This document shows, piece after piece, positions 2,747 to 21,795 of a stretch of 53,152 nt of DNA. Location of the stretch: assembly GCA_035540635.1 (NCBI GenBank), contig DATLGH010000030.1, positions 1 to 53,152 on the forward strand, given 5' to 3'. Under the pieces are notes generated by a model. That model was given only the letters and a program-made list of their open reading frames with translations. It was not told the origin of the DNA and did not search any database. Position numbers and translations under genes: made by a program. How positions within the stretch are numbered: the stretch's first letter is position 1; every line of letters begins with the position of its first letter. The DNA comes from Egibacteraceae bacterium (lineage in GTDB: Bacteria; Actinomycetota; Nitriliruptoria; Euzebyales; Egibacteraceae).

Positions 2747-2754
2747 GCCGCGGG

Positions 2755-3607: not shown

Positions 3608-3661
3608 TCCTTTATTGCTCGACCCCGCGGCGTTGCGGGTACCGGTCGCTGTCGGCACCCC

Positions 3662-4609
3662 TCAACGGCTGGCGAACACGAGCGACTGCGTGTGGCCGGG
3701 CAGGTCGACGACGTCGACCGCGGCGAAGCCCGCCTCGGCAAGCCAGCGCGCATACTCCTCCTCCCCGTGCGTGTCCCCGCCGCCGCCGACGCCGAGCATC
3801 TGGACGGCGAAGGCCGGGACGACGGCGTTGCGGCCACGGACGAAGGCAAGCAGCGCGACGCCGCCGCGCGGGGCGACGACCGGACGCAGCAGGCGAAATA
3901 GGGCGGCATTGCGCGCGGGGTCGTACGTATCGGTGACGGCTGCGGCGAACACGATGTCGAAGGGTCCCTCCGCGAGGTCGTGGAAGAAGTCGCCGGCGCA
4001 GAGACGCACCCCGGCGGCCTCGAGTCGTCCGCTGCGGCGCGCGAGGTCGACGGCCTCGGGCCGGTCCTGCATCGTCACGGACAGGCCGCGGCGGGCGAAC
4101 GCGAGGGCGTGCTCGCCGTGGCCTCCGCCGAGGTCGAGCACGCGCCGCGCGTGCGGGAAGCGCGACAGGCACGCCTCGACGGCGGCCGGTGCGACCGGAC
4201 GCGCGTACGCCGCGAGGGCTGCGTACCACCGCTCGCGCTGCGCCGGCCCGGAGGCGGGCGCGGCGGTCGGCTCGACGCCCCGCAGGCGGGCGTCGAGCGC
4301 GCCGCTCCACATGCGTATGGAGCGGGCGTGGTGGCGCAGGAGCGCGGCGAGGTCGGGGTCGGGTGCGCCGGCGCCGGTCGCGTAGCGGCCGCCGCTGCGG
4401 CGTTCGACGATGTCCCAGACCGCGAGGAGGTCGAGGACGACGCGCACCGCGTGCTCGTCGAGGCCCGAGGCCGCCGCCACGTCGGCCGGCGTGCCCGGCA
4501 GGGCCGAGAGCACGCCGGCGTCGGCGGCGGCGTCGTAGACGAGCAGCATGCGCCAATCGCTCGCCTCGTCAGGCGGGGCGAGGAACGACCGGTCGGGGCG
4601 CACGGTCAC
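3662..4609 (-). CDS. SAM-dependent O-methyltransferase-like protein
   Basis: 315 residues. The N-terminal third looks like the winged-helix/dimerisation domain of plant-type (methyltransf_2) O-methyltransferases (PADVAAASGLDEHAVRVVLD, then ERRSGGRY). The C-terminal Rossmann domain has motif I DLGGGHGEH, an acidic residue at the end of strand 2 (QDRPE), and the post-I motif with CAGDFF. Last gene of the nine-gene minus-strand operon, 7 bases after the binding protein gene stop. In that setting it may demethylate or methylate an intermediate of the imported compound, or be a passenger; the substrate cannot be read from sequence. Confidence 0.85.
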   Translation of the reverse strand: MTVRPDRSFLAPPDEASDWRMLLVYDAAADAGVLSALPGTPADVAAASGLDEHAVRVVLDLLAVWDIVERRSGGRYATGAGAPDPDLAALLRHHARSIRMWSGALDARLRGVEPTAAPASGPAQRERWYAALAAYARPVAPAAVEACLSRFPHARRVLDLGGGHGEHALAFARRGLSVTMQDRPEAVDLARRSGRLEAAGVRLCAGDFFHDLAEGPFDIVFAAAVTDTYDPARNAALFRLLRPVVAPRGGVALLAFVRGRNAVVPAFAVQMLGVGGGGDTHGEEEYARWLAEAGFAAVDVVDLPGHTQSLVFASR

Positions 4610-4616
4610 CGGGCGG

Positions 4617-6290: not shown

Positions 6291-8041
6291 GCGGTTCCCT
6301 TCTCGTTGCGGATGGGCAGGTGGACAGGTTCGGGCCGGCGGGAGGCGAACGCGGAGGCGGCATCGACGAGCCGGCGGGCGGTCGGGCTCTGGGGATCGGT
6401 GGAGACGAACCTCGACGGGCCCTCCTCGACCACGCGGCCGGCGTCGAGCACGACGATGCGGTCGGTGACCTTGCGGACCACGGCGATGTCATGTGACACG
6501 ACGACGAGGCCGAGGCCCATCTCGGCCTGTCGTTCGCGCAGGACGACGAGCAGGCGTGCCTGCTCGGACGCGTCGAGCATGCTCGTGGGCTCGTCGGCGA
6601 TGAGCACCTTCGGACGGACGACGAGCGCGCGGGCGAGCGCGACCCGCTGCAGCTGGCCGCCGGACAGCTCGTGGGTGCGCGACCGGAGGAAGTCGCCTGC
6701 CGACGGCAGGCCGACGCTGTCGAGGACCTCGCGCACCGCGCGCGCACGCTCCGCGAGCGCCCCCGATCCGGCGACGTCGAGCGGCTCGCGCACGAGCTCC
6801 TCGACGGTCAGGCGCGGGGAGAGGGCGTCCCAGGGGTCCTGCATGACGAGCTGGATGCGCCGGCGCAGCGCACGGGCCGCGCGCCTGCGGGATGCGCGCA
6901 GCGGCTCGTCGCCGAGCCACACCTGCCCCGCGTCCGGCGCGACGTGCCCGGTGAGGACGCGCGCAAGGGTCGACTTGCCGCTGCCCGAGGGCCCGACGAT
7001 GCCGACGGCTTCGCCCTCGCGCAGTTCGAGGGACACCCCCGTCAGTGCCTGCACCTGCGCGTTCCCACGCCCGAACGCCTTGCGCACCCCCGCTGCCGCG
7101 AGCAAGGTCTTCAGTCCGCCGAAGTGGCAGGCGACCAGGCGCCCCCGCGACAGCATGAGCGGAGGGTTGTCGTCGCGGCACCAGTGCTCTGCCTGCGTGC
7201 ACCGCTCGAAGAAGGGGCATCCCGCCGGAAGGTTGCGCGGGTCGGGAGGGTGACCGCGGATGGGACGCAGGTCCTTCGTCGTGTTCATGACGGGGTAGGC
7301 GTTCACGAGCCCCCAGGTGTAGGGGTGGGCCGGGTCGGCGATCACCCGGTCGGTGTCGCCGACCTCCATGGCCTGTCCCGCGTAGAGGACCATCGTGCGG
7401 TCCGCCAGATGGGTGGCGTCGGGCAGATCGTGGGAGATCACGACGAGCGCGAAGGCGCGTTCCTGCGCCAGTGTTGCGACGCGGGCGACGAGCTCCGCCC
7501 TCGTCGCGGTGTCGAGGCCCGCCGTGGGCTCGTCGAGCACGACGAGCGCCGGATCGAGCACGAGCGTCATGGCCAGCAGGGCGCGGCGCCGCTCCCCACC
7601 GGAAAGCTGATGCGGATAGCGGTCGAGCAACTTGGGATCGAGCAGCATCCCCTCGGCGGCCGCCGTCACCCGGCGGCGGGCGCGTGCGGCGCTGAGACCG
7701 AGGCGGTCGCGCAGCGGCTCGGCAAGCTGCGTGCCGACGGTCGTCACGGGGTTGAACGGGGCGCCCTGCAGGGCGAGCGCGACCGTCGACCAGCGCAGCT
7801 CGCGGAGCCGCTCCGCCGGGGCGCCGATGAGCTCGACGCCGTTCAACCGGACGTTGCCATGCGCCTCCGGCGGCTGCACGAGGCCCGCGAGGCACATCGC
7901 GAGGGTCGTCTTGCCCGATCCGGACTCACCGACGACGGCGAGCGACTGCCCCCGCTCCAGGCGCAGGCTCAGTCCCCGCAGCGCGTGCACCCCGCCGGGG
8001 TAGCGCACCGCGAGATCCTCGACCTCGAGCAGCGCGCTCAC
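6287..8041 (-). CDS. Fused double ABC ATPase of a peptide/opine-type importer
   Basis: 584 residues with two complete nucleotide-binding domains in one chain, equivalent to separate DppD and DppF. Domain 1: Walker A GESGSGKT, signature LSGGERRR, Walker B VVLDEPTAGLD, then the oligo_HPY region with cysteines near CPFFERCTQ. Domain 2: GPSGSGKS, LSGGQLQR, LIADEPTSMLD. GTG start at 8041 overlaps the permease stop by 4 bases; the much longer open frame upstream is a shadow of the permease gene. Powers import of the ligand bound by the lipoprotein encoded next. Confidence 0.93.
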   Translation of the reverse strand: MSALLEVEDLAVRYPGGVHALRGLSLRLERGQSLAVVGESGSGKTTLAMCLAGLVQPPEAHGNVRLNGVELIGAPAERLRELRWSTVALALQGAPFNPVTTVGTQLAEPLRDRLGLSAARARRRVTAAAEGMLLDPKLLDRYPHQLSGGERRRALLAMTLVLDPALVVLDEPTAGLDTATRAELVARVATLAQERAFALVVISHDLPDATHLADRTMVLYAGQAMEVGDTDRVIADPAHPYTWGLVNAYPVMNTTKDLRPIRGHPPDPRNLPAGCPFFERCTQAEHWCRDDNPPLMLSRGRLVACHFGGLKTLLAAAGVRKAFGRGNAQVQALTGVSLELREGEAVGIVGPSGSGKSTLARVLTGHVAPDAGQVWLGDEPLRASRRRAARALRRRIQLVMQDPWDALSPRLTVEELVREPLDVAGSGALAERARAVREVLDSVGLPSAGDFLRSRTHELSGGQLQRVALARALVVRPKVLIADEPTSMLDASEQARLLVVLRERQAEMGLGLVVVSHDIAVVRKVTDRIVVLDAGRVVEEGPSRFVSTDPQSPTARRLVDAASAFASRRPEPVHLPIRNEKGTA

Positions 8042-8871
8042 GGGTGGGCTCCGACCCGCCGGTTGAGCAGCGGCTCGAGCCCCACGCCGAGGAACATGAA
8101 CCCCGAGACGAGGACGGTGATGGCGAGGCCCGCCGGCAGGACCCACCACGTCCACAGCGGTGAGAAGTACAGGCCGGGGTGGGCGAGCGCGCGGTTGAGG
8201 ATGAGCCCCCAGCTCACCGCGGTGGGGTCGGCCAAGCCGAGGAACGCGAGGCCGGTCTCCAGCAGGACCGCCTGGCCGGAGACGGCCACGAACCCCGCGA
8301 CGATGAGTGGTCCGACCGCGGGCAGCAGGTGCCGGCGCATCACATAGAGGCCACCGCCACCGAAGCCGCCCGCCGCCGCGACGAAGCCCCGTTCCCGCAG
8401 GCTCGCCGCCTGGCTGCGCACCGTCCGCGCGATCACCGGCCACACGGTGAGCCCGATGGCGAGGACGAGGTTCGTCCTGCTCGGCCCCACGAGCGCGGCG
8501 ACGAGGATGAGCAAGGGCAGGCGGGGGACGGCGAGCACGACGTCGACGACGCGCATCGCCACGACGTCGACGAGCCCACCGGCGAGCCCTGCCCCCACGC
8601 CGACGAAGGCACCGACGGAGATGGCCAACGTCGCCGCGCCGAGTGCGACGACGAGCGCGGCGCGGGCGCCCCAGACGAGCTGGGAGAAGAGGTCCTGCCC
8701 GATGTTGTTCGTGCCGATCAGGTGGCGGCTCGACGGGGGCTGGAGCGCCTCGCCGGCCAGGGCGCGCGGGTCGTACGGCGCGATCCACGGGGCGAGCAGG
8801 GCGGCGATGACGAGGGTCAGGACGAGCAGGCCCCCGACGAGCGCGAACCACGACCGCAGCCCGTGGCTCAC
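8038..8871 (-). CDS. ABC transporter permease (DppC/OppC-like)
   Basis: 277 residues, about six membrane helices. The N-terminus has the short OppC_N segment (one helix followed by APYDPRALAG and HLIGTNNIGQD), as in DppC. The binding-protein-dependent transport loop is visible as ERGFVAAAGGFGGGGLYVMRRHLLP (EAA-type motif). The GTG start at 8871 overlaps the TGA of the preceding permease gene by 4 bases. Forms the membrane channel with the DppB-like partner. Confidence 0.92.
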   Translation of the reverse strand: MSHGLRSWFALVGGLLVLTLVIAALLAPWIAPYDPRALAGEALQPPSSRHLIGTNNIGQDLFSQLVWGARAALVVALGAATLAISVGAFVGVGAGLAGGLVDVVAMRVVDVVLAVPRLPLLILVAALVGPSRTNLVLAIGLTVWPVIARTVRSQAASLRERGFVAAAGGFGGGGLYVMRRHLLPAVGPLIVAGFVAVSGQAVLLETGLAFLGLADPTAVSWGLILNRALAHPGLYFSPLWTWWVLPAGLAITVLVSGFMFLGVGLEPLLNRRVGAHP

Positions 8872-9953
8872 CCGCGCATCCTCGGGTCCAGGCGGGTCGA
8901 GAGCACGTCGGCGAGGTAGTTGGCGGTGACCACCACGGCGCCGAGCACGAGGAAGCAGGCCTGCAGGACCGGGTAGTCGCGGAACTCCACCGCCTCGAAC
9001 ATCAACCGCCCGAGACCGGGATAGGCGAACACGACCTCGACGTAGATGCTGTTGGTGATCGCGAAGCCGAGGTGGACGGCGATGAGGCTGACGACGGGGA
9101 GCAGGGCGTTGCGCGCCGCGTAGCCGTACTTCAACCGGCGCTCGCGCAGCCCCTTTGCCCTTCCCATGAGCAGGAAGTCGGCCCCGAGCTGGCTGACCAT
9201 GCCCGCGCGCATCACCAGGTACTGGCTGGCCGCGAAGCTCACCGCCATCACGGCCGCCGGCAGGACGAGGTGGTGGGCGATGTCGGCGGCGCGCTCGAGC
9301 AGTCCGAGCGCGGCGAACGGGGTGGTTCCGCCGGACAGGGGGAACCAGCCGAGCGTGGCCGCGAACACGAACACCGCCAGGGAGGCGAGGAAGAACGCGG
9401 GGAGGCTGTTCGCTGCCATGGCTGTGGTGAGCAGCCCGCGGTCGACACCGCGCCCGCGCCGCCAGCCCGACGTCGCCCCCGCCACGAGGCCTGCGGTCAC
9501 CGCAACGGTCATCGCCGCCGCCACGAGCAGCAACGTCCACGGCAGCCGCTCCGCCAGGAGTCCGGCGACCGGGCGGTTGTGACGGATCGACGTGCCGAGG
9601 TCGCCGCGGGCGAGCCCCGCGAGGTAGGACACGTACTGCTCGCCGAGCGGCCGGTCGAGCCCGTAGTAGGCGGCCAGCTGCTCGCGCAGGGCTTCGCTCT
9701 GCACGTAGGAGGGAGCGGCCGGGTCGAGCAGGGCGACGAGCGGGTCGCCGGGCATCGCCCGCGGCAGCACGAACGTCAGCGTCACGAGGACGTAGACCGT
9801 CCCGAGGTAGGCGAGCAGGCGGCTCCCGCCCGCCCGCGACCTGCGTGGTCCGTCCGCCGGCTTCCGCGTGGCCAGCCCCGTGAGCTCCTCCGCCACCGCC
9901 GGGGGCTGCTCGGGCCCCCCGGTGGCCGGGGCGCGCGCCTCACGCGCCGCCAT
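8868..9953 (-). CDS. ABC transporter permease (DppB/OppB-like)
   Basis: 361 residues. An unusual hydrophilic N-terminal extension of about 45 residues (Ala/Pro/Arg-rich) precedes the first helix (LLAYLGTVYVLVTLTFVLP), then the canonical PGDPLVALLDP, a Tyr-Gly-Leu-Asp-Arg-Pro motif (YYGLDRP), the RGDLGTSIRHNRPV segment and the EAA loop (MGRAKGLRERRL). The ATG at 9953 overlaps the end of the aldolase gene by 14 bases. Pairs with the DppC-like permease. Confidence 0.92.
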   Translation of the reverse strand: MAAREARAPATGGPEQPPAVAEELTGLATRKPADGPRRSRAGGSRLLAYLGTVYVLVTLTFVLPRAMPGDPLVALLDPAAPSYVQSEALREQLAAYYGLDRPLGEQYVSYLAGLARGDLGTSIRHNRPVAGLLAERLPWTLLLVAAAMTVAVTAGLVAGATSGWRRGRGVDRGLLTTAMAANSLPAFFLASLAVFVFAATLGWFPLSGGTTPFAALGLLERAADIAHHLVLPAAVMAVSFAASQYLVMRAGMVSQLGADFLLMGRAKGLRERRLKYGYAARNALLPVVSLIAVHLGFAITNSIYVEVVFAYPGLGRLMFEAVEFRDYPVLQACFLVLGAVVVTANYLADVLSTRLDPRMRG

Positions 9954-10605
9954 CGCCGTGCCCGGGCGCGAGGCAGGGACGCAGGTCGGTGAAGGCCCCG
10001 GGGGGGAGGTCCTTCGCCCCCCCGATGGCCGCCGCACGCAGCTCTGCCTCGGCCGCCTCCTCGACCACGATCGCGAGCTTGGCGGCTGCGGTCGGGGACG
10101 GCCCCCACACGAGCACCCCGTGGTTGGCCAGCAGCAGCGCCGACGTGCGGGGGTGCGCGCGGACGGTCTCCGCGATGGCACGCCCGAGCGCCGTGGATCC
10201 GCGCGGTGCCCACGCCGCGACGGGCATCTCGCCGTACTGGCCCCGTCGCAGCAGGGCCTCGTAGCGGCACGGGAGCGGACGACGCGCGAGGGCGAAGGCC
10301 GTGGCATGCGGCGAGTGGGTGTGCACCACCGCCCCGGCTTCGGGCAACGGTCCGTACACCGCGGCATGCATGCCGACGATCTCCGCGGTGGATGCGTCGA
10401 GCGTGCCCTCCTCCACTTGCCCGTCGGCCCCGACCACGGCGAACGACGTCTCCTTGACGGCGGCAACCGTCCCTCCGGCGAGGAGCATGCGCTCGGCGTC
10501 GATGCGGGCGCTGAGGTTGACGTGGCCGGTGTGGGACATGATCCCCGACTCCGAGAGGAGACGCGCCGCTCGCACGAGGCCTCGCCGCCGCTCCTCGACG
10601 GTCAT
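9940..10605 (-). CDS. Class II aldolase/adducin-family protein
   Basis: 221 residues. The zinc-binding signature of class II aldolases is present: VHTHSPHATAF (two His) and a further His in LLLANHGVLVWG; the glycine/serine-rich loop for the substrate phosphate is represented by GHVNLSARI near residue 27. Family reactions are retro-aldol cleavage or epimerisation of ketose phosphates (fuculose-1-P, ribulose-5-P), and some act on methylthio-sugar or hydroxy-keto acids. Start ATG overlaps the upstream stop (ATGA). In this operon it may cleave a carbon skeleton released from the imported compound. Confidence 0.88.
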   Translation of the reverse strand: MTVEERRRGLVRAARLLSESGIMSHTGHVNLSARIDAERMLLAGGTVAAVKETSFAVVGADGQVEEGTLDASTAEIVGMHAAVYGPLPEAGAVVHTHSPHATAFALARRPLPCRYEALLRRGQYGEMPVAAWAPRGSTALGRAIAETVRAHPRTSALLLANHGVLVWGPSPTAAAKLAIVVEEAAEAELRAAAIGGAKDLPPGAFTDLRPCLAPGHGDGGA

Positions 10606-11231
10606 GGGGATTCCACCGCTGTCGTCGTCCGCACGAGCGCCTCGCGCTCGTTGCGGGCCTCGTAGAACGCGCGGAGGACCGGCCGCTCGGGATCGACCAT
10701 CGAGAGGATGAGGCACCAGAGCCCGCTGCCCTCCGCAAGGCGCCGGTCGAGCTTCGTGCAGGTGTCGCGCACGGGGTCGGAGGCCCACGCGACGCGGTGC
10801 ATGTGGTAGGACCCGAACAAGATGGAGCCGGCCGCGTCGCAGGTTTCCTCCGCCGCCTGCACCTCGTTGGGGTCGGCGACCCATCCGCGCCGCTCGAACG
10901 GCGTCTCGGAGGGGACGGCCACGGCCTCCATCACCTCGTCGACGTAGGGCCGCAGCGGCGCCGACCAACGGAGGTTGCGACGGAGGGCAAAGGCATGCGT
11001 CGCGACGATTTCGTGGTCGTGCATGCGGCCGCCGAGCAGGCCGTAGCTCTTCTTCGCGGCCTCCTCCCCGGGCTCGTAGTCGCCACGGAGCTTGCGGCGG
11101 GCGTGCGCGAGGACGCGGTCGTACACGCCCTGCGGGAACGTGATGGTGCGGACCTCTTCCAGAAACCCCACGACGACGGCTCCTTCATGACACTGCGGGC
11201 AGGTCCGTTGGTCGGGCAGGGGGGCGCTCAT
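10602..11231 (-). CDS. JAMM/MPN-like metalloprotease-fold protein with N-terminal CxxC
   Basis: 209 residues, not confidently assigned. After a short CPQC motif (a possible half zinc knuckle), the pattern ITFPQGVYDRVLAHARR ... YGLLGG ... ALRRNL ... GSYHMHRVAWASDPVRD resembles the JAB1/MPN/Mov34 fold: alpha helix ending in H-A, a G-L-L-G strand, an Asn, then H-x-H followed by S and D. The H-x-H-x5-S-x4-D spacing departs from canonical H-x-H-x7-S-x2-D, and Lys sits where the catalytic Glu normally precedes GLL; two Glu lie four residues earlier. It may be an altered isopeptidase/amidohydrolase or an inactive relative. Both ends overlap neighbours by 4 bases, so it is an integral part of the operon. 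Confidence 0.6.
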   Translation of the reverse strand: MSAPLPDQRTCPQCHEGAVVVGFLEEVRTITFPQGVYDRVLAHARRKLRGDYEPGEEAAKKSYGLLGGRMHDHEIVATHAFALRRNLRWSAPLRPYVDEVMEAVAVPSETPFERRGWVADPNEVQAAEETCDAAGSILFGSYHMHRVAWASDPVRDTCTKLDRRLAEGSGLWCLILSMVDPERPVLRAFYEARNEREALVRTTTAVESP

Positions 11232-12619
11232 CGGTCCGGTGAGGTCGAGGGCCGGCTGCCGGTTGCTGCCCGTTGCCGCAGCCAGAGGTCCGCCCGCTCG
11301 ACGACCCGGTTGACGAGCGTGGCCGCGTCGCCGACCTGGCGGGCGGGATCGAAGATGCGGTCGAGCTCCTCGTCGCCCAGGTGCATGCGAACCTGCGGGT
11401 GCCGGGAGACCCCGGTGCGCAGGGACCGTCCCTCGTCGCGGGCCTGCTGGCTGAGCGCGTAGACGAGCGCGTAGGCGCTCTGTTTGCCCATGTGGCGGCC
11501 GAGGGCGAGCATGAGCGGCTCCGTGCAGATCTCCTCGGCGCGGGCCTTGGCGCCTTCGGCCATGCGGTCGGTGTGGACGCGCAGGCCGTCGAGGACCTCG
11601 GCGACGATCCGCAGGCCCGTGAGCGTGTAGTGCGACACGTCGGCGACCGCGACCCATTCCAGGCGGAGCCCCCGCGAGTCGCGCTCGTGCTCCACCACGA
11701 GCCCCTCGAGCGCGAGGGTGGCGTCCACCCGGGCGAGGCGCGCAAGCACGACAACCTGCTGGCAGGCCTCCGGGTTGCGCTTGTGGGGCATGGTGCTGCT
11801 GCCCACCCTTCCCGGGCTCCAGCCTTCCTCCAGCTCGCCGAGCTCCGGCCGCCCGAGTGTGCGGATCTCGTCGGCGATGCGCGCAAGCGTGCCCGTGAGC
11901 ATGGCCAGGCACGTGACGTACTCGGCCACGCGATCGCGCGAAGCGTGCCAGGACGTGGCCGGCACGCCCAGTCCGAGACGGTCCGCGAAGCACTCGAGCA
12001 GCCGAGGTCCCCGCCCGTGGAACCCGGCCATGGTGCCCACACCCCCGAAGAGCTGGGCCACGAGGGCCCGTTCGCGCATGGCGTCCACTCGCGCCGCCTG
12101 GCGGAGCAGCTCGTCCAGCCATCCGGCGACCTTGACCCCGAAGGTCGTGGGCAGTGCCGGGCGGCCGTGCGTCCGTCCGACCATGACCCTGTCGCGGTGC
12201 AGAAGGGCGAGGTCGCGCAGGACGACCACGAGGCCGAGGACGTCGCGGTCGACGACGTCGAGGACGTCGCGCATCTCCAGAGTTTGCGCGGTGTCCTGGA
12301 TGTCCTGCGTCGTCGCGCCGTAGTGAACGAACTCGCCGGCGCCTGCCCCGCACGCCGCCTCGTGCGCGCGCAGCAGCGCGACGAGGGAGTGGTTCGTGGC
12401 GCGGAAGTTCTCGGCCAGCGCGTCAAGGTCCATGCGACCGAGGTCGGCGGCGCGTGCGATCTCCTCGGCCGTCTCGCGGGGCAGCAGGCCCACGTCCGCC
12501 TGGCTCAGGGCCAGGGCCGCCTCGACGTCGAGCCAGCGCTGCATGCGGCAGGTGTCGCAGAAGATGCGGCGGCTCTCCTCGGTGGCGTACGCGTGACCAT
12601 GGAACCGTGAGTCGGTGAT
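11228..12619 (-). CDS. Fumarase/aspartase-superfamily lyase (adenylosuccinate lyase / carboxymuconate cycloisomerase type); start unclear
   Basis: About 463 residues of clear homology. Signature SSTMPHKRNPE (the SS-x-MPxKxNP loop of the superfamily), the GRTHGRPALPTTFG region with catalytic His, and HYGATTQDIQDTAQ are present, as in PurB/PcaB-type enzymes that eliminate fumarate or isomerise cyclic acids. Homology starts at ITDSRFHGHAY, yet there is no ATG, GTG or TTG in frame between the upstream stop (12672-12674) and an ATG at 12544 inside the first helix. The given start is an ATC at 12619, marking where homology begins, not a proven initiation site. Likely splits the imported compound or an intermediate into fumarate plus an amine. 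Confidence 0.85.
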   Translation of the reverse strand: MTDSRFHGHAYATEESRRIFCDTCRMQRWLDVEAALALSQADVGLLPRETAEEIARAADLGRMDLDALAENFRATNHSLVALLRAHEAACGAGAGEFVHYGATTQDIQDTAQTLEMRDVLDVVDRDVLGLVVVLRDLALLHRDRVMVGRTHGRPALPTTFGVKVAGWLDELLRQAARVDAMRERALVAQLFGGVGTMAGFHGRGPRLLECFADRLGLGVPATSWHASRDRVAEYVTCLAMLTGTLARIADEIRTLGRPELGELEEGWSPGRVGSSTMPHKRNPEACQQVVVLARLARVDATLALEGLVVEHERDSRGLRLEWVAVADVSHYTLTGLRIVAEVLDGLRVHTDRMAEGAKARAEEICTEPLMLALGRHMGKQSAYALVYALSQQARDEGRSLRTGVSRHPQVRMHLGDEELDRIFDPARQVGDAATLVNRVVERADLWLRQRAATGSRPSTSPDR

Positions 12620-12671
12620 GTGGCCGTGCCGGTGCGAGCACGGGGCACTGCGAGGTTCGGCGGGCGCCCGG

Positions 12672-14042
12672 TCAACGCAGCCCCTCCGCCGCCCCGCGGT
12701 GGGGCCGGTCCCCGTAGGGACGCCGCCGCCCGGCGTCCTGTTCGGCGCATAGCCGCAGTGCGGCCTCTCGCGGGGGAACGCCTCCCGCCGCCGCCAGGGA
12801 AAGAACCTCGCGCACGAGCGCGCGCGCCCGCCCCGCGACGCGCGCGAGCACCTCGTCGGCCGCAGGGCGTGCCGGCGGACCGAAGAGGGCGTCCATGGAA
12901 GCCGGGCCGCCGCAGCCGCCCACGAAGTCGGGGACGACCACGACACCCCGATCGTGCAGCCACTGCTCGGTGTCCGCCGACAGGCCGAGGTTCGCCCCCA
13001 CCACGACCGCCCTCGTGCCGGCCGCCAGCGCGTTTCGCGCGTCGGCGTCGACGGCGTCCTCGCAGGCCGCGAGCAGGAGGACGTCGACGGCTTCGAAGAC
13101 CGCATCGGGAGGCGCGACACGGCCGGCGGTGCGCGGACGGGTACGCGTACCATCGTGGTGCGGCCGCCGCAGCAGGGCCGTCACGTCAAGGCCCCCATCG
13201 GCGATCAGGCAACCGTGCTCGTCGCCCACCGCGGTGACCGGCAGGCCGGCCTCCACGAGTGCAGCCGCAGCAGCACGCCCGAGCGTTCCGAATCCCTGGA
13301 TCCCCACCCGTGGGCTGGATCTCGGGTAGCCGACCTCCTCGAGCGTGGCGATGGCGGCGTGGGCGAGTGCGTGGCCCGCGCGCCGCTCTCCGAGCGTGAG
13401 ATGGCCGACGCGCTCGTCGAGGCGCCGAAGGCGGTGGAGAACCTCCCCTTCGGGCAGTTCCTGCGCCGCCGCGACGGCGATCTTCACCGACGCGATCCCC
13501 TCGGCACGCGCGTGTCGCTCGATCTCGTCCCAACGCGTGCCCATGTCTGGGCCCATGGAGTAACGCTCGAGCAGGTAGGGCTTGATGAAGTGGAAGAACC
13601 GGCGGATGGCCGCCGCCTTGCCCGGCGCGCGGGGGTCGTAGGCGATGCCGGACTTCGCCCCGTCGACGCCCAGGCCGAGGACCCGCTGCTTCAACGCCAT
13701 GACCCCCGCCAACCGCTGGACCGTCGAGGCGGTCAGGCCGGGATGCACGCGGAAGCCGCCCGCGGCCAGGGCGTTCCCGACGCCCGCGAACGACAGGTGA
13801 CCGGAGAACCCTTCGACGGGGTCCACGTAGTGGACCAGCGACGCCGCGCGGTCTGCGTGGAGGAGTTCGGAGTAGGCCTGGTGGCGGGAAATGGGCTGCT
13901 CTCCGAGCTGCGAAAGGTCCAACCGGGACGCGGGGGTGGTTGACGTGGCATGCGTCGGGAGGCGGGCCAGTGGCCAGCGGGCGGGCAGGGAAGATGTCAG
14001 GCTAGGAGCTTCGGTGGGCGCGTCAATGGGTGTGCGCGTCAT
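12672..14042 (-). CDS. Glu/Leu/Phe/Val dehydrogenase-family protein, divergent
   Basis: 456 residues, first gene of the nine-gene operon. The catalytic half shows family-like GFRVHPGLT, RLAGVMALKQRVLGLGVDGAKSGI (two conserved Lys) and MGPDMGTRWDE; the Rossmann half shows GIQGFGTLGRAAA and VVGANLGLSAD ... VVVPDFVGGCGG, where usual family members have EGAN and PD-x-x-x-N-x-GG. The missing Asn and altered glycine loop suggest an unusual amino-acid substrate or a changed activity. ATG 14042 directly follows an in-frame TAG; only a weak ribosome binding site precedes it. Expected reaction: NAD(P)-linked oxidative deamination. Confidence 0.85.
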   Translation of the reverse strand: MTRTPIDAPTEAPSLTSSLPARWPLARLPTHATSTTPASRLDLSQLGEQPISRHQAYSELLHADRAASLVHYVDPVEGFSGHLSFAGVGNALAAGGFRVHPGLTASTVQRLAGVMALKQRVLGLGVDGAKSGIAYDPRAPGKAAAIRRFFHFIKPYLLERYSMGPDMGTRWDEIERHARAEGIASVKIAVAAAQELPEGEVLHRLRRLDERVGHLTLGERRAGHALAHAAIATLEEVGYPRSSPRVGIQGFGTLGRAAAAALVEAGLPVTAVGDEHGCLIADGGLDVTALLRRPHHDGTRTRPRTAGRVAPPDAVFEAVDVLLLAACEDAVDADARNALAAGTRAVVVGANLGLSADTEQWLHDRGVVVVPDFVGGCGGPASMDALFGPPARPAADEVLARVAGRARALVREVLSLAAAGGVPPREAALRLCAEQDAGRRRPYGDRPHRGAAEGLR

Positions 14043-14207
14043 CTAGTCCACTCGGGCGGGTCTGCGGCGGCCGAGGGAGGTTTACACGACCGCGGGTGGC
14101 GGCAGGCTCGCGGCGCGCGTGGGCCTCCTTGATTGGCGTGGGTGTGGCCGGGCTGTCCGCGTCGACCAAGGGACAAGGACCGATCGGCCGGCAGGCAGGC
14201 CCCGACT
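14043..14207. promoter_or_regulatory. Divergent intergenic region between catabolic operon and MFS gene
   Basis: 165 bases separate the two divergent starts, so promoters for both directions should lie here. I see no convincing -10/-35 pair and no extended palindrome. Confidence 0.35.
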
Positions 14208-15419
14208 GTGCGACGAACCGACAACGACCCACGGCGCACGCAGCGTGCCAGCTTCCGCTTGCTCTACCTCGGCCCGTTCATCGCGTACGGCGACCGCTTC
14301 GCCATCGCCCCGATACTCGTGTCGATCGCCCGCGACCTGCAGGAGTCGCTGGCCGCGGTCACCGCCGTGGCCATGTTCTACTTCTTCCTCTATGGCGTCA
14401 TGCAGCCGATCTACGGTGTTCTGGCCGATCGCTTCGGCCGTGTGCGGGTCATGCGCTTCGCCCTCGTCGGGATGGGTCTTGCGAACCTGCTGTCCGCCGC
14501 CGCCGGCGACCTCAGCGCCCTCATCGTCGGCAAGGCCGCCGCGGCGGGGTTCGCCGCCGGGATCCTGCCCCTCTCTCTCGTCTACGTCGGCGACAAGGTC
14601 CCGTTCGACCGCCGCCAGCAGGTCATCGCCAACGTGCTCGCCGCCGGTGCCCTCGGGACCGTCCTCGCGACGACGGGTGCGGGCCTGCTCGGGCGGTTCT
14701 CCGCGTGGCGTGCGGTGTTCGTCATCCCGGCTGTCCTGGCCCTTGCGCTTGCGGTCCTCCTCGCGTGGCTGCCCGAGTCGCTCGAGCGGCGCGAGGGAAC
14801 CGGCCCGTGGGGGCAGATCACGCGGGTGGTCACCCGGCCATGGGCGCTCCTGCTGCTGGGGATCGCAGTGGCAGAGGGCGCCTTCATGCTCGGGATGCTC
14901 ACCTTCCTCCCCGCCGCTCTCGAGGCCCACGGGGAGAGCGCCGCCGTCGCCGGTACGGTCGTCGCCGTCTACGGTGTGGCGGTCTTCGTCGGCATGCAGG
15001 TCCTGAAGCGCTTCATCCGCAGGACGGCCGTCGAGCCGGGGACCCTGATCCTCGCCGGTGGCACACTCGTCACCGCCGCCTATCTCGCAGCGGTGCCGGC
15101 GCAGGGCATCGTGAACATCCTTCTTGCCTCCCTGCTCATCGGATTCGGCTACTGCTTCCTCCACTCCACCCTTCAGACCTGGGCGACAGAGGTCGTGCCG
15201 GAAGCTCGGGGCACCGCGGTGACCCTGTTCGTGACGAGTGTGTTCACCGGGGCGGCGATCGGGACCGCGGCGGTGCGGGGGCTCGTCGACGCGCAACGAT
15301 TCTCGGCGGTCTTCCTCGTCGCGGCGGGGCTGACGGTGCCCGTGACGCTTGTCGGGGCATGGGCGCGCAGGCGCTATGGCGAGACCGCCGCAGTGTTGGG
15401 GGCCGGCGGGTCACCATGA
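14208..15419 (+). CDS. MFS transporter
   Basis: 403 residues, about 12 membrane helices, with the MFS motif between helices 2 and 3 (GVLADRFGRVRVMR). The GTG at 14208 was chosen since it places the start just before the first polar segment and helix; frames open further upstream but would add a non-homologous Arg/Pro-rich stretch. Transcribed divergently from the catabolic operon and translationally coupled (ATGA) to a methyltransferase. Substrate and direction of transport unknown; an efflux or organic-acid carrier role would fit. Confidence 0.88.
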   Translation: MRRTDNDPRRTQRASFRLLYLGPFIAYGDRFAIAPILVSIARDLQESLAAVTAVAMFYFFLYGVMQPIYGVLADRFGRVRVMRFALVGMGLANLLSAAAGDLSALIVGKAAAAGFAAGILPLSLVYVGDKVPFDRRQQVIANVLAAGALGTVLATTGAGLLGRFSAWRAVFVIPAVLALALAVLLAWLPESLERREGTGPWGQITRVVTRPWALLLLGIAVAEGAFMLGMLTFLPAALEAHGESAAVAGTVVAVYGVAVFVGMQVLKRFIRRTAVEPGTLILAGGTLVTAAYLAAVPAQGIVNILLASLLIGFGYCFLHSTLQTWATEVVPEARGTAVTLFVTSVFTGAAIGTAAVRGLVDAQRFSAVFLVAAGLTVPVTLVGAWARRRYGETAAVLGAGGSP

Positions 15420-16264
15420 GCGGCCATGACGGGGCCCCACCGCGGCCCGCACCCTCGGCGCCCATGGCCATCCACCAGGTCGCGGCAGCCGGCTATGCGA
15501 CGTGCGGCGACGCGTACGAACGCGGGCGTCCCGGTTACCCTGCCGACGCACTCCGCGAGGTCTGCACGCGCCTTCGGATCGGCCCCGGCAGTGTTCTGCT
15601 CGAGGTCGGGGCAGGTACCGGAAAGCTGACCCGGTTGCTCGTCCACGCCGATCGCACCGTCGTGGCCGTCGAGCCGGTGCAGGCGATGCTGCGCCATCTC
15701 ACCGGCGCCGTGCCGGGGGCGCTCGCTGTCGCGGGCACAGCCGAGGCGATCCCCCTGCGCGCGAGGTCGGTCGATGCCGTCGTGGTCGGGACCGCGTTCC
15801 ACTGGTTCGACGGCGACCGGGCACTCGAGGAGATCCGGCGGGTCCTGCGCCCCGGGGGCGGTCTCGCGCTGCTTTGGAACAACCCCGACCGGGACCACCG
15901 GTGGGTGGCAAGGGCATGGGAGATCATCGATCGGCACCGCAGCGGCACGCCGGGCAACCGTGACCTTCGCTGGCGCGACGCCTTCCGCCGGACCAGCGGC
16001 TTCACCGCTCTGCGGCACGAGCGCTTCTCCCACGAGGACCTGACCGACCTCGACGGTCTGCGGGCCCGCGTCGCGTCGATCAGCTTCATCGCGGCCCTTC
16101 CGGAGGGTGCACGGCAGGAAGTGCTCGCGCAGGTCGCCGACGTGGCGAGCAGCGATCCCATCGTGGCCCGGCGCGGGGTGCTCGTGCTGCCCTACCGCAC
16201 CGACGTCTACTGGTGCCGCGCGGCGGGTGAGGAGGGCGAGGAGGCAGACGCGGCGCGTCGGTGA
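15416..16264 (+). CDS. SAM-dependent class I methyltransferase (Methyltransf_11/25 type)
   Basis: 282 residues. Motif I is LLEVGAGTGKLT, followed by VVAVEPVQAM (acidic end of strand 2), GTAEAIPLRARSVDAVVVG (motif III region) and VLRPGGGLALLWN. The AFHWFD segment is typical of UbiE/trans-aconitate-like enzymes. The N-terminal 35 residues (Ala/Pro-rich) are poorly conserved, so an internal ATG at 15464 is an alternative start. The ATG overlaps the MFS stop; the gene ends inside a strong palindrome. Substrate unknown. Confidence 0.88.
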   Translation: MSGHDGAPPRPAPSAPMAIHQVAAAGYATCGDAYERGRPGYPADALREVCTRLRIGPGSVLLEVGAGTGKLTRLLVHADRTVVAVEPVQAMLRHLTGAVPGALAVAGTAEAIPLRARSVDAVVVGTAFHWFDGDRALEEIRRVLRPGGGLALLWNNPDRDHRWVARAWEIIDRHRSGTPGNRDLRWRDAFRRTSGFTALRHERFSHEDLTDLDGLRARVASISFIAALPEGARQEVLAQVADVASSDPIVARRGVLVLPYRTDVYWCRAAGEEGEEADAARR

Positions 16265-16281
16265 GAATTCTCTCACCGACG
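16256..16281 (+). terminator. 11-bp perfect palindromic hairpin at gene end
   Basis: Arms 16256-16266 and 16271-16281 pair perfectly around a four-base ATTC loop and include the methyltransferase stop codon. There is no T-run after it, so it may be a Rho-independent-like terminator or an operator for the ATP-grasp operon that starts 74 bases downstream. The gap to 16354 otherwise shows only the GAGGAG ribosome binding site. Confidence 0.5.
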
Positions 16282-16354
16282 GCTCATCGGTCCTTCATCG
16301 GGGGCGGGGAAGGTGCGTGACGGTCCCCGACAGCCGAGACCCGAGGAGCGTGGC

Positions 16355-17191
16355 ATGCAGCCGGTCTGGATCCTCACCGACGAGCGCTACGTCGCTCAGC
16401 GGATGCCCGGGGCGCTGACCGCCGCCCTGCGCAGGCGCGCGGTCGACGCGCGGCTCATCGTCGCCGAGCGCGTCGCCCCCCATCCCGCCGGCGGCTCCCC
16501 GTGGCCGGGCTTGCGCCGGGGGGACATGGTCGTCGGGCGTGCCCGCTCGCCGTGGGCCCTGACCCTCCTGCGCGCCGCGGAGCGGGTGGGGGCTGCAGCG
16601 ATGATGCCCTCCGCGGCCATCGAGGCGGTCCGCGACAAGGCGCTCGCGGCGGGGGTCCTCGCCGACGCCGGGGTGCCCACGCCCCCGACCTGGCTAGCTC
16701 ACGGCCCCGACGCGGTGAGGGCGCTGCCCGCCACCGCCTATCCGCTGCTGCTCAAGCCGGTGTACGGGGACAACGCCCGGGGCATCCGCCTCGTGCGGGG
16801 ACCTGACGACCTGCGCGGCGCCCACGACGAGGCGTCCGTGCTGGTCGCGCAGCGCTACGTCGACGTGGCAGGCGTCGACCTCAAGCTCTACATCGCCGGG
16901 GAGCGGGTGTGGGCGGTGCGGCGCCCCTCGCCGCTGACCGGCGAGCCGGGTGAGGGCACCGACGTCCCCGTGGACCGCACCCTGCACGATCTCGCCCGCA
17001 GGTGCGCGGAACTCTTCGGGCTCACCTTCGCCGGGGTCGACGTGCTCGCCGCGGCCGACGGCCCGCTCGTCGTCGACGTGAACGACTTCCCCAACTACAC
17101 GGGGATCGCCGAGGCGCCCGCCGTGCTCGCCGACCTCGTCCTGCGGTCGGGCGCGGCCGCCGCCCCGGTGCGGGAGGGGATGTGCGCATGA
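16355..17191 (+). CDS. ATP-grasp enzyme 1 (RimK/ITPK-like)
   Basis: 278 residues, first gene of a five-gene operon. Features of the ATP-grasp fold: DKALAAGVLADAGVPTP, the nucleotide-binding Lys in YPLLLKPVYG, the glycine loop DNARGIRLV, and a metal site at VVDVNDFPNYTGI. The D-x-N-x-F-P form and the segment LKLYIAGERVWAVRRPSPL resemble inositol-phosphate kinases (ITPK: KVYVVG...RPS, DINxFPGY) more than RimK ligases, which usually have E-x-N. Both families remain possible. The ATG is preceded by GAGGAG 6 bases upstream. The stop overlaps the next gene by 4 bases. Confidence 0.82.
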   Translation: MQPVWILTDERYVAQRMPGALTAALRRRAVDARLIVAERVAPHPAGGSPWPGLRRGDMVVGRARSPWALTLLRAAERVGAAAMMPSAAIEAVRDKALAAGVLADAGVPTPPTWLAHGPDAVRALPATAYPLLLKPVYGDNARGIRLVRGPDDLRGAHDEASVLVAQRYVDVAGVDLKLYIAGERVWAVRRPSPLTGEPGEGTDVPVDRTLHDLARRCAELFGLTFAGVDVLAAADGPLVVDVNDFPNYTGIAEAPAVLADLVLRSGAAAAPVREGMCA

Positions 17192-18051
17192 GCGCCGTCC
17201 GATCGCGGGGCACCCGCCCGGTGGCCTTCGTCCTCGGCCGGCCGGCCGGTCCCGGCTCGGTGCTGCCCGACGTGATCGCTCTGCTCGGCGAGCGTGGCAT
17301 CCCGGTGACCGTCGACGTCGTCGACGACCGCGTCCCGGCGCCCCTGCTCGCCCGCTGGGCCGACGCCGGGCTGCTCGTACCGCGGGGACTCGGCCTCCCG
17401 GTCCTCGAGGCGCTGCGCAGTCTCGCGGGGGTGCCGGCGTGCAACCCGGTGGCGGCCACGGCGGCGGCGCGCGACAAGGTCGAGGCACGCCGGCGGGTGC
17501 TCGCCGCCGGCGTGCCGATCCCCGAGGCCGCCGTCACGGGTCGCTGGGAGGCCGTGCGGGCCTTCGGTGCGCGGCGGGCGGTGGTCGTGAAGGCGGTGGC
17601 CGGCAGCCGCGGGCGGGGCATCCACCTGACCGACCGGCCCGGCGCGCTGCCCGCCGACCCGCCGTTCGCAGGGCCTTGGATCGCCGAGGAGCGCGTCCCC
17701 GCGGACGGGCTCGACCGCAAGCTCTACGTCATCGGCTCGGGCGTGTCCGGGGTGCTGCGCACCTGGCCACCCCGCACGCTGGGCGACAAGCTGGGCACCG
17801 CCTTCGAGCCCTCCGAGGTCGAGCACGCGGTCGCCCGCCGCGCCGCGGGCGCCGTCGGCCTGTCGCTCGCGGGGGTCGACGTCATCAACGGGCCCGAGGG
17901 GCCGGTCGTCGTCGACGTGAACGCCTTTCCCGGCTTCAAGGGCGTGCCCGACGCCGCCGCCCGCATCGCCGCCCACCTCGCCGACCAGCGGGGCGCGCCA
18001 GCCGTCGAGCCGGCGAGCACCGCCCGGGAGGTGACGGCATGCGCGTCGTGA
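17188..18051 (+). CDS. ATP-grasp enzyme 2 (RimK/ITPK-like)
   Basis: 287 residues, distinct from its neighbours but sharing the same motif set: CNPVAATAAARDKVEARRRVLAAGVPIP-type helix, VVVKAVAGSRGRGIHL (Lys and Gly loop), DRKLYVIGSGVSGVLR, GLSLAGVDVI and VVDVNAFPGFKGVPD. The last is strikingly like the DINAFPGYEGV of animal ITPK1. Activity could be phosphorylation of a polyol phosphate or ligation of an amino acid to a carboxylate. It ends 13 bases inside the dehydrogenase gene, so the genes are co-translated. Confidence 0.82.
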   Translation: MSAVRSRGTRPVAFVLGRPAGPGSVLPDVIALLGERGIPVTVDVVDDRVPAPLLARWADAGLLVPRGLGLPVLEALRSLAGVPACNPVAATAAARDKVEARRRVLAAGVPIPEAAVTGRWEAVRAFGARRAVVVKAVAGSRGRGIHLTDRPGALPADPPFAGPWIAEERVPADGLDRKLYVIGSGVSGVLRTWPPRTLGDKLGTAFEPSEVEHAVARRAAGAVGLSLAGVDVINGPEGPVVVDVNAFPGFKGVPDAAARIAAHLADQRGAPAVEPASTAREVTACAS

Positions 18052-19316
18052 TCGTCGGCACCGGCAAGATCGGCTGCGGCGCGCTCGCGCCGTTGTTCGC
18101 CGACGCGGGCTGGGACGTCGTGATGGCCGCCCGCACCCGCGCCGTCGCGCAGCGGATCCGCTCGTGCGGCGGTTGGCTCGTGCAGGTCACCGGCCCGCGG
18201 GGCGGAGGACCGCGCTGGGTGCCGGTCGCGGACGCCGTGGCGGTCGGCGACGACGCCTTCGGCGAGGCCGTGGCCGCCGCCGACCTCGTGTGCGTGTCGG
18301 TCGGGGTCGGCAACGTCGCCGCCACCGCCGCTCCGCTGGCGCGCGCCCTCGCCGGCCGTGTGCGCCCGGTCGACGTGTGGGTGGTCGAGAACGCCGACCA
18401 GGCACCCTCCCTGCGGACCGCACTCGCCGCCTGCGGCACCGCGCTGCCCCCCGTGGGGATTGCCGGGGTGGTCGCGAGCGTCGCGGTGGGGCGCGGGCGC
18501 TGGACGGCCACCGGTCCGGCGCCCTGTTTCGTCGGCGACGACGCCCGCACCCTGTGGGTGGACGGCACCGCGCTCGTGACGCCCCCGCCCACGCTGCCGG
18601 GCGTGCGCGCCACCCGCCACTACCGCGCCCGTCTCGTCGAGAAGCTCTACGTCTTCAACGCCGGGCACGCGGTCTGCGCCTACCTCGGGGCGCTGCGCGG
18701 GCACGAGACGGTGCCCGACGCGGTGAGCGACCCGCTGCTGCGCCCGATCATCGTCGGCTGCCTGCTCGAGGCGCGGCGTGCGGTGCTCGCCGCCCACCCC
18801 GAGCTCGTCGGCGAACCCGCCGCCGAGGGCGTCGGCCCCCACACCGCCGACGAGGTGCACGCGGTGGTCGGCGACGCGCTGCGCCGGTTCGCCGACCGCG
18901 AGCTCGCCGACCCGATCGAGCGGGTGGCGCGGGAGCCGATCCGCAAGCTCGGGGCCGACGACCGCCTCCTCGGCCCGGCCCGGCTCATCCGGGCGGCGAC
19001 GGGACGGGTGCCCGCGCACTTCGCGCTCGCCGTCGCCGGGGCGCTGCTCTACCCGTCCCCCGACGACGAGCAGGCCGTCGCGCTGCGGCGCATGCTGCGC
19101 CGCCAGGGGCTCGTCGCCACCCTCGGGCAGGTCTGCGGTCTCGCGCCCGACGACGAGCTGACCGCCGCCATCGAGGCGCGCTACCGGGGCTTCATCCTCA
19201 CCCCCGAGGGCACGATCTTCCCGCCCGTGCACACGACCGACGCGCTGCTCGCGCCGCGGCTGGCTGCCCCCGAGGCTGACCTCGCCGGAGCCCCGGGCAT
19301 GCGAGGGGCGTCATGA
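18039..19316 (+). CDS. Mannitol-1-phosphate 5-dehydrogenase-like NAD(P) enzyme
   Basis: 425 residues. N-terminal Rossmann motif VIVGTGKIGCGALAPLFADAGWDVV; C-terminal all-helical dehydrogenase domain with the MtlD-like signature RFADRELADPIERVAREPIRKLGADDRLLGPA, containing the Lys used in catalysis by this family, and EKLYVFNAGHAVCAYLG. Family reaction: sugar-phosphate/polyol-phosphate interconversion. There is no mannitol PTS gene nearby; instead it sits between ATP-grasp genes, so a different polyol phosphate is likely. GGGAGG ribosome binding site precedes the ATG by about 7 bases. Confidence 0.85.
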   Translation: MRVVIVGTGKIGCGALAPLFADAGWDVVMAARTRAVAQRIRSCGGWLVQVTGPRGGGPRWVPVADAVAVGDDAFGEAVAAADLVCVSVGVGNVAATAAPLARALAGRVRPVDVWVVENADQAPSLRTALAACGTALPPVGIAGVVASVAVGRGRWTATGPAPCFVGDDARTLWVDGTALVTPPPTLPGVRATRHYRARLVEKLYVFNAGHAVCAYLGALRGHETVPDAVSDPLLRPIIVGCLLEARRAVLAAHPELVGEPAAEGVGPHTADEVHAVVGDALRRFADRELADPIERVAREPIRKLGADDRLLGPARLIRAATGRVPAHFALAVAGALLYPSPDDEQAVALRRMLRRQGLVATLGQVCGLAPDDELTAAIEARYRGFILTPEGTIFPPVHTTDALLAPRLAAPEADLAGAPGMRGAS

Positions 19317-20119
19317 GGTCGCGCGTCTGCGCCGTCGTGGAGGCCGGGGGGGTGCCCGGCCGCAACCCCCTGCTCCCCCCGCTGGCCGCCATCCTCGCCG
19401 GCGCGGGGGTGGAGCTCGTGACCTGGGACCCGACCCCGGGGTTCTCGGCCACGGCGCCGGGCGCGCCGGAGGCCGACCTCTACCTCCTGAAGGGCGATCA
19501 CCCGGCGGTGGCGACCGCGGGTGGCTGCCTGGCCGACGCGGGGGCGCCCTGCCTGAACACGCTGGCGGCCACGTCGCTCGCGCGGGACAAGGCCCGGGCG
19601 CTGGCCCGGGCGTCGTCCGCGGGCGTGCCGGTCCCCGCCTCGACCGTCGTGGGGGACCCCGCGGCACTCGCGGCTGCGGTCGCGGCCGGCCAGCGGGTCG
19701 TCAAGCCGCTCACCGGCGCGCACGGCAGCGGCGTCGCCCGTGTGGGACCCGGCGACCCGCTGCCCACCGGCCCGGGCCCCTGGCTGGTGCAGGAGCCCGT
19801 CGAAGGCGACGGGTTCGACCGCAAGGTCTACGGGGTGGGAACGCGCACCGCCCTGCGGCGGATGCGCTTCTCCCCGGGCCGCGTCGACGGTGAGCGGCTG
19901 CCCTGCCCCGCCGACCCCAACCTCGAGCGTCACGCCGGCGCGGCGGCGGCGGCCTGCGGGCTCGTCTGCTGGGGGGCGGACTTCGTCGTCGGGCCCGACG
20001 GCCCGGTCCTCGTCGACCTCAACGCGTTCCCCGGCTACCGGGGCGTCCCCGAGGGCCCCGCCTGGGTCGCCGAGGCCGTCCTGTCCGCGCTGCGAGGCCG
20101 CGAGGAGCCGGCGGCATGA
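19313..20119 (+). CDS. ATP-grasp enzyme 3 (RimK/ITPK-like)
   Basis: 268 residues, third member of the set. Motifs: CLNTLAATSLARDKARALARASSAGVPVP-type helix, QRVVKPLTGAHGSGVARV, DRKVYGVGTRTALRRM, GLVCWGADFVV and VLVDLNAFPGYRGVPEG. Sequence between motifs differs enough from the other two that each probably does a different step. ATGA overlap with the dehydrogenase upstream and with the MFS gene downstream. Confidence 0.82.
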   Translation: MRSRVCAVVEAGGVPGRNPLLPPLAAILAGAGVELVTWDPTPGFSATAPGAPEADLYLLKGDHPAVATAGGCLADAGAPCLNTLAATSLARDKARALARASSAGVPVPASTVVGDPAALAAAVAAGQRVVKPLTGAHGSGVARVGPGDPLPTGPGPWLVQEPVEGDGFDRKVYGVGTRTALRRMRFSPGRVDGERLPCPADPNLERHAGAAAAACGLVCWGADFVVGPDGPVLVDLNAFPGYRGVPEGPAWVAEAVLSALRGREEPAA

Positions 20120-21795
20120 CCGGCAGCCCCGGCATCGCGCGCGGCCGCGTAGCGGGGCTGCGCGCGTGGGGGCGGAACGCGCCCGCGGTCAAGGCGGTCC
20201 TGCTCGAGGGCTTCTTCACGAGGCTCGGCTTCGGCATCGTCACCCTCTACCTGCCCCTCTACGCGCTCGAGCTCGGGATGAGCCTGACAGAGGTCGGCCT
20301 GCTCGTCGGCGCCAAGGCGCTCGTCGTCCCGGCCGTCAAACCGGTCATGGGCGTCGTCGTGGACCGGTTCGGGGCGCGGCGCGGCTACCTCGCCGCGGTC
20401 GGGCTGCGCTTCCTCGGCGCGCTCCTGCTGCTCGCCGCCGCCACGCCCGCAGCCCTCCTCGCGGTCCGCTTCGTGCAGGGCGCGGCCTCCGCCGCCCGCG
20501 ACCCCGCGTCCGTGACCGTGCTCGCCAAGCAGGCGCAGGCGCGGCTCGGCCGGACCTTCTCGGCCGCCATCGGTGCGAAGGACCTCGGCAACATCAGCGC
20601 CGGGGTCGTCGGCGGGACGGTCCTCGCCCTGTCCGGCGGGGACTTCGGGGTGCTGTGGGTGGCAGTGGCCGTCCTCGCGGCGGTGCCCGTCCTCGCCGTG
20701 TGGCGTTGGGTGCCGGCCGCCACGGCGGTCGACCAGCCCGCTCCCGCGGCGCCCGACGTCACCGAGGCCGCGGCCGAGCAGGGACGCGCGGCCGCCTCGG
20801 TGCTCCGCAGCCCCCACCTGCGTCGGATCGCCGCCCTCGGGATGTGCACCGGCCTGACCGCGCACCTGTTCCACGGCCTGTTCCAGGTGTACGCGTCGGA
20901 GGTGGCGGGCCTGTCGGCCGGGACGATCGGGGCGGTCTACTCGCTGTCCATCGTCACGCTGCTCGTCGTCGGTCCCGTCGCGGGCTGGGCCGCCGACCGC
21001 TTCGGCACCGGGCCCCTCGGCGGGGTACGCGGCCTCGCCAACGCCCTTTCGTCGATGATCTTCCTCGCCGCGCCGAGCCTCGGGGGCGTCGTGGCCGGGC
21101 GACTCGTGGACGACGCGGGCAAGGCGGCGTTCCGGCCGACGTGGGGAGCCCTCGTCGGGGGCGCCGCGCGCGAGGCCGGGCCGCGCGGCGGCCGGGTCGC
21201 CGCGGGACTCGACACCGCGTTGTCGGTCGGCGAGGCGCTCGGCCCGCTGCTCGCCGGGTTGCTGTGGGACACCTTCGGGGTGGCGGTGTTCCTCGTCGTG
21301 CGGGCGGTGCTCGGCGTCGGCACTGAGGTCGTCGTGGGGCGGCGCCTGCGTGGCAGCGCGCCGGCCGCCCCACACGCGGCCCACCACAGCCCCCCGCTCG
21401 GGACCGACGGGGGCTGGGCCGAGGGCGAGGACGCCGCCGCCGCGGTCGTCGACACGGCGGCCGAGCCGCGCGGGCGCGTCGAGCAGGCGCTGCGGGCCCG
21501 CAGGCCCGACGCGGTGCCCGAGGAGCTCGCTCGCGCGTGGGCGCGTGCGGGCCTCGACGTGCTCGGCTCGCTCGACGCGGCACGCAGCGGCGAGGCGGGC
21601 GTGCTGCCACCGCCGGTGCGGGCGCGCCTTGCGCTCGCGGCCGCGCTCGTGGGCGACCCGAGCCACATCCTCCTCACGGGGCCGCATGCCGAGGAGCTGC
21701 TGCCCGTGCTCGACCGCTACCCGGGAACGGTCGTCGCCGACGTGCCGGCGCGGACGGGGGCGCCGGAGCGACCCCCGGTCGCCCTGTCCAGCTGA
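20116..21795 (+). CDS. MFS transporter with long C-terminal extension
   Basis: 559 residues: about 12 helices (residues 30-410; motif [17 protein letters not shown]) followed by some 140 soluble residues. The extension starts with a Pro/His/Asp-rich linker and ends in an Ala/Leu-rich helical segment including [31 protein letters not shown] recognise no domain in it. Last gene of the ATP-grasp operon, so the likely role is export (or uptake) of the operon's product, with the extension possibly docking to the enzymes. Confidence 0.87.

Follow-up and report, generated by a model that had tools for sequence, protein, structure and literature searches.

Several described systems offer points of comparison for the locus considered here. 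Within the ATP-grasp fold, an arginine on the first strand of the kinase half marks the assemblage of peptide ligases (PMC4431377), and kinases of the inositol-phosphate type, ITPK, have been reported in eukaryotes and archaea (reviewed in PMC8024741). The mannitol-1-phosphate dehydrogenase (M1PDH, or MtlD) of S. aureus uses a catalytic triad of N119, K200 and N205, with H208, R280 and K288 as further substrate-binding residues, and a phosphate pocket of R283, R287 and R294, where mutations of R287 and R294 were the most harmful (PMC6623548). In Streptomyces, the response regulator PhoP binds direct repeats of 11 nucleotides (nt) (PMC7866108). We analysed a stretch of 53,152 nt from an Egibacteraceae bacterium (GenBank assembly GCA_035540635.1, contig DATLGH010000030.1), referred to throughout as the window, in which five overlapping genes encode three ATP-grasp enzymes (A, B and C), an M1PDH-like dehydrogenase (DH) and a transporter of the major facilitator superfamily (MFS). 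As judged from gene content and homology, these belong to an eight-gene unit present in several Actinomycetota: a histidine kinase, an OmpR-type response regulator, a stand-alone receiver, A, B, DH, C and the MFS transporter.

The five genes lie on the plus strand at 16355–17191 (A), 17188–18051 (B), 18039–19316 (DH), 19313–20119 (C) and 20116–21795 (MFS), with successive overlaps of 4, 13, 4 and 4 nt, as an earlier reading made from the sequence only had placed them. Enzyme A matches the Pfam families RimK (46.5 bits) and Ins134_P3_kin (PF05770; 34.1 bits against a cut-off of 23), and has further support from an AlphaFold model (pLDDT 92.4) and from Foldseek and VIA matches. B matches RimK at 30.4 bits and falls just below the PF05770 cut-off at 21.9; C, at 13.9 bits for that family, is the only one of the three that passes no Pfam ATP-grasp cut-off, yet it aligns throughout with A and B. 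The DH matches Mannitol_dh_C, and the transporter, which carries a C-terminal extension of about 140 residues, matches MFS_1 (3.7e-31). Comparison of orthologue pairs from several genera gives dN/dS values of 0.28–0.57 for the five genes, indicating purifying selection and thus that they are more than chance open frames. A gene reading as secA follows the MFS gene on the same strand.

A gene-neighbourhood search, one of the checks proposed with the sequence-only reading, found the set in seven further loci, all of them in Actinomycetota, and the keeping of the set across the eight loci bears out the suggestion that the five genes act as a unit. That the module exists and is coherent is, on this comparative evidence, almost certain. 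The order A-B-DH-C-MFS occurs in Streptomyces sp. S.PNR 29, a second Streptomyces (G523) and three other genera (genomes G170, G089 and G757), though a frameshift apparently interrupts gene A of G757. Among named relatives of the module the closest, in a metagenome-assembled genome of another genus in the Euzebyaceae, has A-B-DH and the start of C before its contig ends. A second copy, which the sequence-only reading had not reached, lies on contig C1 of the window's own genome (a 3.46-Mb draft) and comprises A, DH, two further ATP-grasp genes and an MFS gene; it is the one exception to the gene order among the complete copies. A search of the collection of genome contigs with the single DH sequence gave no match, and a profile search gave two. 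ATP-grasp genes accompany this clade of DH in every copy, as does the MFS gene wherever a contig end does not truncate the copy.

The module is rare: among 344 Streptomyces genomes a single one has it, as does a single one of the 24 in G170's class, and in the class of G089 it occurs in two of 39, the other strong matches there being plain MtlD relatives. A distribution this patchy suggests spread by horizontal transfer. A tree of 23 ATP-grasp proteins places A in one fully supported group, C in another (84/75) and B in two groups close to each other. With A and C each a single group across loci, and B nearly so, the set of three paralogues appears old, and by this phylogeny the roles of A, B and C were probably already distinct in the common ancestor of the loci. 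The two ATP-grasp genes that follow in the C1 copy (locus L007, 5700–6506 and 6503–7342, plus strand) are not clearly B or C, and one has D-x-S for D-x-N at the motif discussed below. Elsewhere, Streptomyces G385 carries a tandem of related ATP-grasp genes (L080, 8218–9947, minus strand) with the lysine and D-x-N also discussed below, adjoining a conservon-like gene set and having neither DH nor MFS, so enzymes like A and C occur beyond the module. A plasmid search with A returned only distant RimK-like proteins, the best of which (from Nocardia) has no adjoining DH or MFS gene.

A profile of six module DH proteins matches the M1PDH structure 3h2z over its full length (E=4.5e-65). In the numbering of the window DH (P0003, counting one extra leading residue), the catalytic equivalents N119, K203, N208 and H211, the other substrate-binding equivalents R296 and K304, and the phosphate-pocket equivalents R299, R303 and R310 are identical in all six. 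The sequence-only reading had called this gene a polyol-phosphate dehydrogenase, and the full phosphosugar active site agrees with that assignment: since both catalytic and phosphate-pocket residues are kept, a phosphorylated ketose or polyol is the expected substrate. Unlike M1PDH itself, however, the module DH forms a clade of its own that always occurs with ATP-grasp genes, and carries an extra C-terminal segment. It scores 135 bits against the best NCBIfam equivalog model, for which the cut-off is 356, and we therefore do not claim identity with MtlD.

In the ATP-grasp enzymes, the metal motif and what follows it read DVNDFPNYTG in A, DVNAFPGFKG in B and DLNAFPGYRG in C, and a second motif reads KLYIAG, KLYVIG and KVYGVG, respectively; both agree with the patterns D-x-N-x-F-P-x-[YF]-x-G and K/R-L-Y/V-x-x-G from which a likeness to inositol-phosphate kinases had been proposed. 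Considering the 22 module ATP-grasp proteins that have the region, the arginine of the ligases is replaced by lysine in all 22 (the invariant column K177), and the N-x3-GG loop of RimK is likewise absent from all 22 (21 as determined by script, and C of G757 by reading), though it is present in the RimK/LysX structures 5zct, 7qyr and 3vpd and in RimK controls from the same class. D-x-N stands in place of the ligase E-x-N in 20 of the 22. For comparison, a true RimK of the same bacterial class reads DIRAFVVG...FRSNVHRGG...EVNSSPG and so keeps all three ligase features, whereas a solved ITPK reads YKVFVVG...DINAFPGYEGV and a solved PPIP5K DVKVYTVG...DVNGFSF. The ITPK signature of lysine, D-x-N and F-P-G-Y is complete in C of the window (FPGY), nearly so in B (FPGF) and altered to FPNY in A. 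The lysine and the D-x-N, both as in solved ITPK and PPIP5K, and the missing loop support phosphotransfer over ligation, as far as catalytic positions can indicate.

The regulatory genes, also outside the sequence-only reading, lie at the start of the window on the plus strand: a sensor histidine kinase with HAMP, HisKA and HATPase_c domains (50–1567), a response regulator of the OmpR/PhoB type with receiver and Trans_reg_C domains (1564–2235) and a stand-alone receiver-domain protein, REC (2276–2635). All three were assigned by Pfam and by identity to their counterparts in other loci, where a HAMP-type histidine kinase, an OmpR-type regulator and a stand-alone receiver adjoin the module; in Streptomyces the REC gene even overlaps gene A by 4 nt. 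The window kinase is 46–53% identical to the module-adjoining kinases of G170, C1 and both Streptomyces, and 33–34% to those of G089 and G757. Its response regulator shares 71% identity with that of G170 and 68% with that of Streptomyces, and its REC protein 58–64% with the module-adjoining ones of C1, G170 and G005, 50–52% with those of Streptomyces and 32–35% with those of G089 and G757. The trio is split from A by about 13.7 kb (2636–16354) of mostly minus-strand genes, including an oligopeptide-type ABC system, methyltransferases, a class II aldolase-type protein, a Glu/Leu/Phe/Val dehydrogenase and another MFS transporter, and the genes examined in this interval included no integrase or transposase. 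A mobile element around the operon was considered and set aside, there being no tRNA and no Rfam match. The trio probably controls the distant operon.

Upstream of A, a repeat search identified three 11-nt direct repeats, CTCACCGACGG-CTCATCGGTCC-TTCATCGGGGG (16272–16304, plus strand), preceded by GTGAGA at 16261, a putative operator which adds a further element to those noticed originally. The pattern CTCAY-N6-CTCAY-N6-YTCAY (16272–16298 in the window) is found upstream of A in the window, C1 and G005 and upstream of the receiver gene in both Streptomyces; G170 has two of the units, which brings the loci with the site to six, and G089 has a less strict pair. An inverted half-site RTGAGA stands ahead of the repeats in five loci. 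The triple repeat matches once in the window and not at all in 100 shuffles; there are only two in the 3.46-Mb genome, one ahead of gene A of each operon copy, with no control match, and other genomes hold a few further sites. In view of the PhoP precedent (PMC7866108), a binding site for a regulator is the natural reading of these repeats. Like the PHO boxes of Streptomyces, the site would combine an OmpR-type regulator with 11-nt direct repeat units (PMC7866108), and unlike them it has a CTCAY core and three units with an upstream inverted half, and both of its genomic occurrences are at the module. Overlapping 11-nt CTCAY/TTCAT repeats are also seen in G170 (L052, 14466–14503, minus strand) upstream of a subtilase gene (12676–14247) with a second histidine kinase nearby, and this gene is possibly a further member of the regulon.

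In G089 and G757 the transporter has a HisKA phospho-acceptor domain at its C-terminal end, scoring above the Pfam cut-off (4.7e-9 and 2.8e-6, respectively). These HisKA-ended proteins (L053, 6074–7708, minus strand; L067, 5711–7336, plus strand) have no ATPase domain. Their domain composition indicates that the fused transporter may take part in a phosphorelay, and the fusion is an unusual signalling part. The C-terminal extension of the window MFS has no Pfam match, and that of C1 is likewise of no known fold; the idea, formed by eye, that the extension is a degenerate ABC ATPase found no support from Pfam, from BLAST against an ABC ATPase or from a model of the C1 counterpart (pLDDT 43). 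The G089 module lies divergently to pstSCAB-phoU (genes named by reading their sequences), a neighbourhood that gives a single hint of phosphate.

Our preferred interpretation, which we hold tentatively and at somewhat under an even chance, is that the unit directs the controlled production and the export of a hexitol phosphate in polyphosphorylated (or ligated) form, with A, B and C acting by phosphotransfer. The kinase would sense a signal outside the cell or in the envelope and phosphorylate the response regulator, which would then bind the three 11-nt repeats and turn the operon on. DH would reduce fructose-6-phosphate, or a ketose phosphate closely related to it, and so form a hexitol phosphate, for which mannitol-1-phosphate is the likeliest identity. 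A, B and C would then attach more groups to this compound one after another. These groups would most likely be phosphates, so that the product would be an acyclic polyol polyphosphate, resembling an inositol polyphosphate in this respect. Its export would fall to the MFS transporter, and the stand-alone receiver probably modulates either enzyme A or the transporter.

A number of observations count against phosphotransfer, and some of them favour the view that A, B and C are RimK/LysX-type ligases forming amide or peptide bonds. The nearest folds to the A model are LysX, ArgX and RimK (Z 26–27), ahead of PPIP5K2 (Z 23.7), the D-cycloserine synthetase DcsG (Z 23.4) and synapsin, DdlB and ITPK (Z about 21–23, with ITPK at 20.9). 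Sequence profiles searched against the PDB agree, with A matching 7qyr (1e-29) before ITPK (1e-13) and PPIP5K (7e-7), B matching RimK (6e-27) before ITPK1 (1e-13), and C matching RimK (1e-17) before ITPK1 (9e-9). Moreover, where ATP-grasp genes stand in tandem elsewhere, their enzymes usually form peptide bonds, and linked genes of this kind are typical of peptide-like metabolites (PMC4431377). Within the module itself, A of G089 has E-x-N and the extra C1 paralogue has D-x-S, and the pst-phoU neighbourhood is seen in one genome only. The histidine with which ITPK binds inositol phosphate is not evident in the module proteins. The proposed kinase likeness thus stands for the signature and not for the proteins overall: in the structure comparison with ITPK1 and RimK, the ligases are the best match at the level of the fold, though not at the catalytic residues, and the outcome that the sequence-only reading had named as refuting it is seen to that extent. 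If A, B and C were ligases, they would add amino acids stepwise to a carboxylated scaffold, with DH supplying or trimming a sugar-phosphate part and the MFS transporter exporting a small peptide-like natural product or signal. We regard this as a serious but somewhat doubtful alternative, as the residue marking the ligase assemblage, the loop and the E-x-N are altered as described, the set has no obvious carboxylate-making enzyme and the DH pocket fits a phosphate substrate. Compared with ITPK and PPIP5K, the module enzymes share the full-length fold, the first-strand lysine and the D-x-N, and with ITPK also the F-P-G-Y that follows, and PF05770 matches A above its cut-off; they differ in their greater overall nearness to RimK and in occurring as three paralogues in a bacterial operon whose gene set lacks any inositol gene.

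The direction of an MFS transporter cannot be read from sequence, and two-component systems commonly control uptake or resistance genes. The module might thus import a compound that the ATP-grasp enzymes activate and DH oxidises under the control of its own sensor, though three coupled ATP-consuming steps and the lack of degradative enzymes in any copy make uptake or detoxification improbable. Even less probable, to the point that we give it very little weight, is a mannitol or compatible-solute operon of the ordinary kind, to which the neighbouring RimK-like genes would be unrelated: the DH is a full-length M1PDH homologue, but the constant company of ATP-grasp and, where contigs allow, MFS genes, the sporadic occurrence of the DH clade (again one in 344 Streptomyces genomes) and the absence from the module of a phosphatase, a PTS or any further mannitol gene are all difficult to reconcile with it. 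The phosphotransfer proposal could also be taken further, to a bacterial counterpart of inositol-polyphosphate metabolism on an open-chain hexitol, in which DH and three ATP-grasp kinases under two-component control would make an acyclic polyol polyphosphate. Once exported, this would serve as a signal, a chelator or a carrier of phosphate, with possible feedback via the receiver and, in G089 and G757, via the transporter-fused HisKA. This extended version we consider rather unlikely as a whole.

No description of this gene set was found in the searchable open literature (subscription journals being outside its scope), in agreement with the earlier remark that no described pathway has it. Each family is known; it is the combination and the shared active-site signature that are not described. 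The Pantoea PNP-1 cluster, a lead from the literature, proved unrelated, and a defence system was discarded, with no PADLOC match. The module offers a compact, testable pathway with a dedicated putative operator, and its Streptomyces members are open to genetics. If A, B and C do act as kinases on a hexitol phosphate, bacteria would possess a multi-kinase chemistry of polyol polyphosphates of their own; if amino-acid ligation is their reaction, the products would be sugar-phosphate conjugates of a new class, from ligases whose active site is unusual. Under either reading, three old paralogues sharing a non-ligase signature need a function.

Elsewhere in the window, a gene at 50970–51431 (plus strand) reads as a GrdA-like glycine reductase selenoprotein A that is open only if the TGA at 51093–51095 encodes selenocysteine, and it would be cut short by annotation pipelines. 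A gene for component B of a glycine/sarcosine/betaine reductase (PF09338) lies at 46545–47867.

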